DNA from: Psychroflexus maritimus
GTDB lineage: Bacteria > Bacteroidota > Bacteroidia > Flavobacteriales > Flavobacteriaceae
Assembly: GCF_011089875.1 (NCBI RefSeq)
Contig: NZ_JAANAS010000035.1
Location: 1-61,857, forward strand
DNA: 61,857 nt
Direction: 5' to 3'
Below are positions 12,136-37,707 of this stretch, in pieces. Numbering within the stretch: position 1 is the stretch's first letter; each line of letters starts with the position of its first letter. The notes under the pieces were generated by a model. The model saw only the letters and a list, made by a program, of their open reading frames with translations. It had not been told where the DNA came from and ran no database searches. The position numbers and the translations under genes are program-made.

Positions 12136-12822
12136 ATGCAAAAAGTACCTTTCAAAAGCATGGACAAGTCTAGGCTTGAAGCATTAAATAAAAAATATAA
12201 ATCCTTAGATTTGAAATCGAGAATTTCAGCTTTATACTCAGACTTTAAAGCAAGTGAAATTATGCTAACCAGTAGTTTTGCGGCTACCTCCGCTTTTTTA
12301 CTAAAGCTATTTTCTGAAGTAAAACCAAGTCAGATTGTTTATTTTATTGATACGGGTTATCATTTTGATGACACATTAGCTTATAAAAAACAACTTACCC
12401 AAACCTATGGACTAAATGTAAAGTCGGTTCGGGCTGTTTCTAGTGAACATGACTATACCACTAAAGACCAAACCTGGAATAAAAACCCAGATTATTGCTG
12501 TAAAATCAACAAAGTAAAACCTTTAGACAAAATAAAAGCTAATTATAATGTGTGGGTTTCTGGCTTAATGAAATGGCAGAGTGATCATCGCTCAAGTTTG
12601 AACATATTTGAACAGCGCAAAGATATTTTAAAATTTTATCCGCTATTAGATGTAAGTAAAGAAGAACGAGATTCGTTTATAAATCAACACCAATTACCTT
12701 TTCATCCATTAGTTAAAAAGGGCTATCATTCAATTGGATGAAAACATTGTACAGTACCTGGAGAAGATCGCTCTGGAAGATGGAACAACAATCCTAAAAC
12801 CGAATGTGGATTGCATCTTTAA
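12136..12822 (+). pseudogene. cysH: Phosphoadenylyl/adenylyl-sulfate reductase (CysH type) with in-frame TGA at an Fe-S cysteine position
   Basis: CysH reduces PAPS or APS to sulfite in assimilatory sulfate reduction. The first 201 codons hold the adenine nucleotide alpha-hydrolase fold: 'MLTSSFAATSAFLLKL' near 43-58, 'IDTGYHFDDT' near 71-80, and 'NPDYCCKINKVKPL' with the Cys pair 121-122 of the 4Fe-4S form. At 'KKGYHSIG' the frame meets TGA (12739-12741) and then continues KHCTVPGEDRSGRW... and ECGLHL to a TAA at 12820-12822. The family motif is SIGC-x-x-C-T, so TGA replaces exactly the first Cys of the CxxC cluster ligand; the second (Cys205) is present. Everything after the TGA is conserved, so this is a single TGY-to-TGA change, a read error or a recoded codon. 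No other sulfate-assimilation gene lies nearby. Unless read through, the protein lacks its cluster and C-terminus. Confidence 0.85.
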
Positions 12823-33586: not shown

Positions 33587-33820
33587 ATGGATATTCAAAC
33601 AAGAAAAATAAAATTTATTCAAGAGTTTTTGAAACTTCAAAACGATGAGCTTATATCTAAATTCGAAAAAATACTCAAAAAAGAGAAAAAGTCATCTAAT
33701 GAACTTATTGAAAATCCGATGACAAAAGAAGTTTTAAATGACAGAATTGAAAAATCTGAATCGGATTTTAAAAACAAACGATTTAAAAAGACCTCTGAGC
33801 TTCTAACAAAATATCAATAA
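33587..33820 (+). CDS. Antitoxin of a ParE/RelE-type toxin-antitoxin pair
   Basis: 77 residues, highly charged and predicted helical: 'KIKFIQEFLKLQNDELISKF' at the N-terminus and a C-terminal half (ENPMTKEVLNDRIEKSESDF...) with 'KNKRFKKTSELLTKYQ' at the end. This composition and length are typical of small Bacteroidota antitoxins that precede RelE/ParE toxins. The partner follows with a TAATG overlap (33818-33822). The antitoxin is intact although the toxin frame is broken. It has its own promoter and probably autorepresses. Confidence 0.75.
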   Translation: MDIQTRKIKFIQEFLKLQNDELISKFEKILKKEKKSSNELIENPMTKEVLNDRIEKSESDFKNKRFKKTSELLTKYQ

Positions 33821-34136
33821 TGAAATATGAGGTTATTTGGTCAGAATTCTCTGAATTTCAACTTGACGAGATTTTGAATATTACGAAAATGAAACGAGTT
33901 TAAGCCTTGCAATAGAAATTATTCAAGGCATTTTAAACAAACCTGAAATACTTCGAAAAAGTCCTTTTATTGGACAAAAAGAACCACTTTTAAAAGAAAG
34001 AAAAATAGAATATCGTTATTTGGTTTTTAAAAGCTTCAAGATTATTTATTCTGTAGATCAAAAAAATGCAGAAATCAGAGTTGCGGATGTTTTTGATACA
34101 AGACAGTTTCCTGAGAAGATAAAAAGAACGAAATAA
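33820..34136 (+). pseudogene. ParE/RelE-family toxin with a single-base frameshift
   Basis: The frame from ATG 33820 reads MKYEVIWSEFSEFQLDEIL and stops after 27 codons. One frame over, the sequence continues without a break as FEYYENETSLSLAIEIIQG..., 'RKIEYRYLVFKSFKIIY' and '...ADVFDTRQFPEKIKRTK' to a TAA at 34134-34136. The two parts together make a full ~105-residue ParE/RelE-like toxin with the usual conserved Arg/Tyr-rich strand and C-terminal 'DVFDTRQ(N)P'. The shift falls in the TTTT run at 33872-33875, where one T seems to be missing (ATT-TTT-GAA expected). It is a true inactivating mutation or a homopolymer read error. Confidence 0.85.
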
Positions 34137-34904
34137 AGCCAGTTGCCAACAGCGCATAGCAAAAACCTGCCTTTGCCGGTCAGGCAGGTGGCGAATTTAT
34201 TGCTGAAACGATTCCGAAGCGTTGGTAGTGTGTTTTTAGAAACTTATAATTTAACCGAAAAATTTGCGCGTTTTAGCTCGCTACTTTCGTTATACGCAAG
34301 ACGTTAAAAATTATGCGACTACCCTGGGTTGATGATGAAGAATGATTTCTAATTTCTCCACACATGCAAGTCTCCTAGGGCCGGGAGAAAAACAATGGTT
34401 TTTGTTTTTCAAATTCCTACCTTATTATTTAAAACCTGAGTTCGATTATAATCACAAAGTCAAAATCAATAAGGATATTCAGTTACAAGGCAATTTTTTG
34501 AAGGATAGCCTTAGCTATCGTGATTAAAATTAACGCAGTAAATGGATGTTCTTATTGAATAAGATAGAGTAATCAGTTTTAAACAGCAATCTACTTTACT
34601 TTTTTACTCCGCAATATCCAGCTATTACGTCTTAAAAAAGTTCGTATCTTACTATTTAAAACAGTTTTGACAAAGGGAGAATAACCGAACTCAGGTTTAA
34701 AAACAAAACCTGTTACAAACCCAAATGTTATTTGCGTTAGGGATGGAAGCGGTAGCTTGGTGAAACAAAAAGCTTGTTTTTAGCGCATTGCCAAAGCGAC
34801 CATAGAAGCTCTTGGCAAGGTGACTAAAAACTGATTTTTGTGAACCAACTTTAGCGGACAGCCCGTTTAAACGCCAAAAAAATCTTCTAAAAACAAGTTG
34901 TCTT
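34137..34904. other. Gene-free, repeat-rich stretch after the toxin
   Basis: No convincing gene in ~770 bp. It holds an acctgcc/ggcaggt hairpin (34165-34171 with 34183-34189) and a gatagc-ctta-gctatc hairpin (34504-34519). A 13-bp inverted pair, aaacctgagttcg (34432-34444) and cgaactcaggttt (34686-34698), is also present. 'aacctgagttcgatta' (34433-34448) recurs exactly at 36845-36860. A 62-codon frame at 34342-34527 spans these repeats and looks accidental. The DNA is probably a graveyard of small mobile or intergenic elements. Confidence 0.6.
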
Positions 34905-36969: not shown

Positions 36970-37707
36970 TCATTTTTTTTTGTTAAGCATTTGTTTTGCT
37001 TTTTCTAAGTCTTCAGGCGTATCAATACCCACATTAGGAGTTGTGGTGGTAATCATTTTTATTTTTTTACCATGCTCTAAATACCTGATACATTCTATTT
37101 TTTCAGTGGCTTCAAGCGGGGTTTGATTTTGGTGGTAAAATTCCATCAAAGCTTTTTTTCTGAAAGCGTAAATACCGATGTGTTTATAGTAATCTACCTT
37201 CAAACCTTTTTCTCTAGGAAAAGGAATTGGCGATCTTGAAAAATACAAAGCAGTATTATTTAAATCGGTAATTACTTTAACATTGTTTGGATTTTCGATT
37301 TCTTCTTTAGTGGTGAGTGGGGTTTTTACTGAAGCTAAATCGATTTCTTTTTGGAAATCGGCCTCAAAAACTTGAATAAGTTCTTGTAACACTTCTTTAT
37401 TGGTAAAAGGCTCGTCGCCTTGAACATTAATTACAATATCGGCATCAATGGATTCTATAGCTTCTGCAATTCGGTCACTTCCACATTCATGCTCTTTTTT
37501 ACTGATGATAGCTTTACCGCCGTGGGCTGTGATCTCCTTATAAATTACTTTTGAATCAGTTACTACAAATACTTGGTCAAAAAGTTTTGTTTTTAATGTA
37601 GCTTCATAAGTTCTTCTTATAACGGATTTACCTTCTAAATCTTTCATTAGCTTCCCTGGAAACCTTGAAGCTTCGTAACGGGCAGGAATCATTGCTATTA
37701 TTTTCAT
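36970..37707 (-). CDS. kdsB: 3-deoxy-manno-octulosonate cytidylyltransferase
   Basis: 245 residues. Activates Kdo to CMP-Kdo for lipopolysaccharide inner-core synthesis. Motifs: '[20 protein letters not shown]' with the CTP-binding R/S/G-K residues, '[14 protein letters not shown]', '[18 protein letters not shown]' (metal-binding Asp) and '[15 protein letters not shown]'. It ends in a TGA stop, showing that TGA is a normal stop codon in this genome. Downstream of it are 65 bp of spacer and the gene-free DNA before the hydrolase. Confidence 0.96.

Follow-up and report, generated by a model that had tools for sequence, protein, structure and literature searches.

An in-frame TGA at an iron–sulfur cysteine codon of cysH in Psychroflexus maritimus: probably a very young nonsense allele, with selenocysteine effectively excluded

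The cysH gene of P. maritimus carries one in-frame TGA at a position where homologues encode a cysteine, which raises the question of whether this codon is decoded as selenocysteine (Sec), terminates translation, or is a false base in the assembly. We analysed the locus within a window of 61,857 bases, the entire contig C34, from a genome of 2.59 Mb in 126 contigs (99.97% complete, 0.09% contaminated). The features of the locus are as follows.

12136-12822, + strand: cysH, for a PAPS/APS reductase of the 4Fe-4S type, with a single TGA inside the frame (translation, PF01507, NF002537, 2goy match)
12136-12741, + strand: ORF as actually terminated, 201 aa, stopping short of the CxxC pair and ECGLH (translation, ORF list)
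12496-12501, + strand: CC pair, which would supply the remaining two cluster ligands (sequence, translation)
12739-12741, + strand: in-frame TGA, codon 202, at the first Cys codon of CxxC (translation; Cys in homologues)
12748-12750, + strand: second Cys codon of CxxC, intact, 3′ of the TGA (sequence, translation)
12758-12776, + strand: weak hairpin 3′ of the TGA, not separable from chance (folding)
12802-12816, + strand: ECGLH motif, its Cys putatively catalytic, intact, 3′ of the TGA (sequence, translation)

Reductase motifs on both sides of the stop

When translated, 12136-12822 reads as 201 codons, the TGA, 26 further sense codons and a TAA at the end. Up to the TGA it encodes a PAPS reductase domain (PF01507, E 7.8e-31, 107.9 bits against a cut-off of 22.5) that also exceeded the cut-off of NF002537 (162.9 versus 154 bits) and scored below those of TIGR00434, TIGR02057 and TIGR02055. 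Around the stop the motifs run in the order SIG-TGA-KHCT...GRW...ECGLH. The placing of the TGA at the first cysteine of CxxC, with reductase motifs on either side, which a first-pass annotation had proposed, was borne out by the translation. The same annotation counted 27 fully conserved codons behind the TGA; the stretch is indeed conserved, but it comprises 26 sense codons and a stop, and is not identical to that of relatives.

In a phmmer comparison with the APS reductase 2goy, cysH residue 201 aligned to chain residue 227, placing the TGA at chain residue 228. We take Cys228 of 2goy to be a ligand of the 4Fe-4S cluster, as presumably are the cysteines of the CC pair, and the cysteine of ECGLH to be the catalytic one. 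The gene has the domain, the CC...CxxC layout, GRW and ECGLH in common with 4Fe-4S CysH (PF01507, NF002537, 2goy), and differs in that one cysteine ligand codon is TGA and the product is truncated. In this product the set of four cluster cysteines is incomplete, the first of CxxC being the TGA and the second lying behind it; the cysteine of ECGLH is encoded, yet it too is absent from the terminated protein.

cysH is preceded by genes for a threonyl-type tRNA synthetase, IF3 and L20 and followed by a small MscS-like gene. Elsewhere in the window we noted an L19-Flavobacteria ribosomal protein leader (Rfam RF03130, 32463-32490, + strand, 44 bits), and an antitoxin-like ORF that precedes a frame which we named RelE/ParE-like toxin by eye (the pair at 33588-34137, + strand).

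A cluster-free CysH paralogue of 207 aa in another genome, G018 (L037, 1438-2061, − strand), is, like the gene described here, a PAPS reductase relative with an ECGLH tail. Unlike it, the G018 copy has neither CC nor CxxC, and no such copy was found in P. maritimus. CysH matches of similar extent to this paralogue occur in several other Flavobacteriaceae.

Selenocysteine machinery and decoding of TGA

Insertion of selenocysteine requires SelA, SelB, SelC and SelD. A genome-wide search for the four components, the check proposed with the first annotation, found no match to selA in the 99.97%-complete genome, while selB, selD and tRNA-Sec were matched only below the cut-offs. The best selB match was EF-Tu, and the sole selD match was thiamine-phosphate kinase (ThiL). 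None of the 133 tRNA-Sec candidates in the genome, all of which were scored, exceeded the cut-off; the eight places matched below it were ordinary Ser, Leu, Tyr, Glu and His tRNAs according to ARAGORN. Such matches below the cut-off are uninformative, because the selB, selD and tRNA-Sec models gave them in all 14 control genomes. Above the cut-offs, the same controls gave selB in 2, tRNA-Sec in 5, selD in 2 and selA in 1.

Decoding of the TGA as Sec would yield a reductase with a selenol-ligated 4Fe-4S cluster. The alignment of the TGA to a conserved cysteine favours this reading, since such a Cys/Sec pair serves as a signature for finding selenoproteins (PMC13188914). Bacterial selenoproteins of the Cys/Sec-pair kind thus have a TGA at a conserved cysteine in common with this gene; they differ from it in that here no Sec genes were found, no convincing SECIS was present, and no second TGA-bearing CysH was recognised. 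In a 2006 survey (PMC1794560) the Sec trait was not found in Bacteroidetes, which argues against Sec at this site.

The RNA fold behind the TGA gave a mixed picture and, as no Sec genes were found, carries little weight. Stretches of 40, 50 and 62 bases that begin at the TGA folded with z = -0.08, -0.28 and 0.00 relative to shuffled sequences, and across the three 75–89 of 200 shuffles folded at least equally well. The hairpin at 12758-12776 has six pairs, a 7-base loop and a 22-base spacing, all suitable and inside published limits. Its minimum-energy loop, however, lacks the G that the bSECIS rule (PMC13188914) calls for at loop position one or two; opening the last pair would supply one. 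All six pairs are possible in 1 of 74 homologous sequences, at least five in 8 of 74, and in the stability of the fold P. maritimus ranks 61 of 74. The fold agrees with the earlier impression that no convincing bSECIS follows the TGA.

We also looked for the exact pattern IG-TGA-x-[H/P/Q]-CT, which variant motifs would escape, in 395 Bacteroidota genomes. It occurred at 25 places in 24 genomes (the reversed pattern at 7 places), and only the place in P. maritimus is CysH, which speaks further against Sec. A crude motif flagged three places as CysH-like, of which two (L198, L204) proved on reading to be chance letters. Taken together with the cysteine found at the site in all aligned relatives (below), the missing Sec genes mean that selenocysteine is effectively excluded, and we regard a selenol-ligated enzyme as vanishingly improbable.

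A general reassignment of TGA was likewise rejected. The gene for RF2, prfB, is present, with a score over the cut-off. Among 52 ORFs of the window, picked from 66 listed, TGA ends 6, TAG 6 and TAA 40. The gene that the first-pass annotation names kdsB (36970-37707; PF02348 cytidylyltransferase) has TGA as its stop, so that the first description of TGA as a normal stop here was correct. No TCA anticodon was seen among the 34 tRNA places found, a list drawn from 150 scored of 248 candidates and possibly incomplete, as Ile (GAT) was not seen among them either.

The codon could also be read at a low level independently of Sec, by a near-cognate tRNA such as tRNA-Cys (anticodon GCA), which is present (L167), or by a suppressor, so that some active CysH would be made. 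The purifying selection on the codons behind the TGA (dN/dS about 0.05; see below) is what a full-length protein would predict, but a very recent or false mutation would leave the same pattern. The presence of RF2 and the lack of a suppressor anticodon among the tRNAs found also count against readthrough. UGA decoding at a useful level without Sec machinery, for instance by tRNA-Cys, with the level of CysH set by leaky termination, seems to us highly unlikely, and recoding of any kind is to be considered very unlikely.

Relatives at the cysteine codon and the age of the lesion

To the TGA the relatives oppose a cysteine codon throughout. The motif was present in 45 of the 46 loci fetched from named relatives, and all 45 had cysteine (TGT in 25, TGC in 20); the remaining locus (L135) is distant and lacks the motif. 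For the alignment, 77 sequences less three identical ones (L090, L091, L093) gave P. maritimus and 73 homologues, with the more distant loci (L025-L036, L065-L076) and repeats (L048, L049) left out. Cysteine stands at the TGA site in 73 of 73 homologues. In the genus survey a CysH match was present in 24 of 27 genomes (none in G007, G014 and G023), and an internal stop occurred in P. maritimus (G000) only, in none of the 23 others. The cysH frames of two other genus members, G017 and G003, match exactly those of records named Psychroflexus sp. and Psychroflexus halocasei.

Across the order, 164 of 395 genomes had a CysH match. Stops occurred in at least six matches, those of P. maritimus, G066, G357, G298 and G400 and the second match of G285. 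Among the matches listed, a lone TGA in a full-length cysH was found in P. maritimus only; a single TAA is the only stop in G066 and in G357, and the other stop-bearing matches have several stops. The cysteine codon at the site is intact in G066, and cysteine also stands there in the truncated remnant of G400 and in the decayed extra copy of G285 (L144, 2470-3051, contig 12). The frame of the latter is still recognisable, and its stops (6 TGA, 1 TAG, 1 TAA) show an excess of TGA.

Apart from the stop, the P. maritimus gene shows the constraint of an intact one. Its identity to the 73 intact homologues is 51–77%, and of the 65 columns at which these are all alike it departs at just one, the TGA itself. 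Counted in this way, 68 of the 74 sequences depart nowhere, five (including P. maritimus) once, and L064 three times. The other invariant codons hold 150 nonsynonymous sites, none of which is changed. Compared with the nearest relative, the 26 codons behind the TGA carry roughly 9 synonymous changes and 3 nonsynonymous ones (dN/dS about 0.05), which indicates that this stretch is not open by chance. For the whole gene and for this part, dN/dS was 0.12 and 0.05 against G002, 0.08 and 0.04 against G015, and 0.07 and 0.02 between G002 and G015; these values are rough, as synonymous sites are near saturation (against L011 they are saturated, with no usable ratio).

The unchanged sites in the invariant codons confine neutral drift to about 2–5% of the gene's own branch, if the dS of that branch is assumed to be 0.4–1.0. 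It follows that the stop arose very recently or else is not real. The initial preference for a recent null mutation or a read error over selenocysteine is supported accordingly: no Sec machinery was found, no convincing SECIS follows the codon, cysteine is universal in the alignment, and purifying selection has lasted to nearly the present.

A young allele or a false base

In bacterial genomes, biosynthetic genes can carry young nonsense (null) alleles, and the P. maritimus gene resembles them in having a single stop and an otherwise intact frame. We consider a very young nonsense allele of an ordinary cysH to be the probable explanation. By this account, a vertically inherited cysH would have undergone a single-base change of the first CxxC cysteine codon to TGA, very recently and at the level of the strain or lineage. 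RF2 would then read the TGA as a stop, giving a 201-residue protein which, lacking the cysteine of ECGLH as well as two of the four cysteines that hold the cluster, should be inactive as a reductase. That cysH is not retained throughout the genus favours this account: the near-complete genus member G014 has no match, and decayed or truncated copies occur in another genus (G285, G400). G014 (100% complete) has kept cysD, and an assembly gap could also explain its missing cysH.

Against a nonsense allele stands the lack of a second lesion and of relaxed selection beyond the small fraction of the branch given above, which an error in the sequence predicts equally. Furthermore, cysQ, cysC, cysD and cysN, which adjoin on another contig (C30), are all open, so that there is no decay across the pathway at large. 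Finally, the mutation would have had to strike a cysteine codon. In four intact relatives 4–6% of the single-base changes that create a stop land on cysteine codons, a mild coincidence that needs no special cause.

Alternatively, the TGA may be a base-call or consensus error, or a base from a minority strain in a mixed assembly, and the living strain would have a cysteine codon and a working CysH. The full constraint on the rest of the gene, where the TGA is the only departure at an invariant column, and the open cysQ-C-D-N genes are as this predicts. The assembly is in 126 contigs, and the contig contains a second split frame, the RelE/ParE-like one (about 33826-34137), which is divided between two reading frames. 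The authors of the GOS selenoproteome study (PMC2398784) also caution that, in candidates known from a single sequence, an in-frame TGA may be a sequencing error. However, the sequence is not generally poor, as 10 other orthologues (at least 100 aa) shared with G002 in a syntenic stretch of about 13 kb have no stop; completeness is 99.97% and contamination 0.09%. Three tblastn rows with stops (from L137, L140 and L090) run antisense to real genes; they were taken as shadow frames and were not counted. We regard an error as a serious possibility, though the less likely one.

The sulfur pathway and significance of the TGA

No second cysH was found in the genome, which gave one match only. Within the genus, all 17 members searched (G000-G016) had cysD, and 15 of them had cysH. 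A siroheme sulfite reductase (NIR_SIR) was found in none of the 17 and in 1 of 27 genomes overall, while 11 of 14 controls were matched. Sulfite from CysH may thus have another fate in the genus; as a guess, we suggest sulfonolipid synthesis. The first-pass annotation had supposed that the strain may be unable to assimilate sulfate and had proposed a check of the other assimilation genes. Of these, cysQ, cysC, cysD and cysN proved open, as described above; the supposed inability is uncertain, as the fate of sulfite may differ. In genome G028, cysH, cysD and cysN are followed by a gene for a TauE-family sulfite exporter (L177, 7491-11408, + strand).

No report of a Sec-containing CysH was found among the titles and opening abstract lines of literature on selenoproteins with PAPS/APS reductase or on Psychroflexus with selenocysteine. 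The available parts of PMC13188914, PMC1794560, PMC2398784 and PMC12013277 contained no mention of PAPS or sulfate reductase.

The locus is chiefly a caution: a TGA at a conserved metal-binding cysteine mimics a new selenoprotein, but this interpretation falls away once the whole genome is checked. Should the base be real, the strain would just have lost PAPS/APS reduction while keeping PAPS synthesis; and as the genus members searched gave no match to a siroheme sulfite reductase, CysH may serve a purpose other than cysteine synthesis there.
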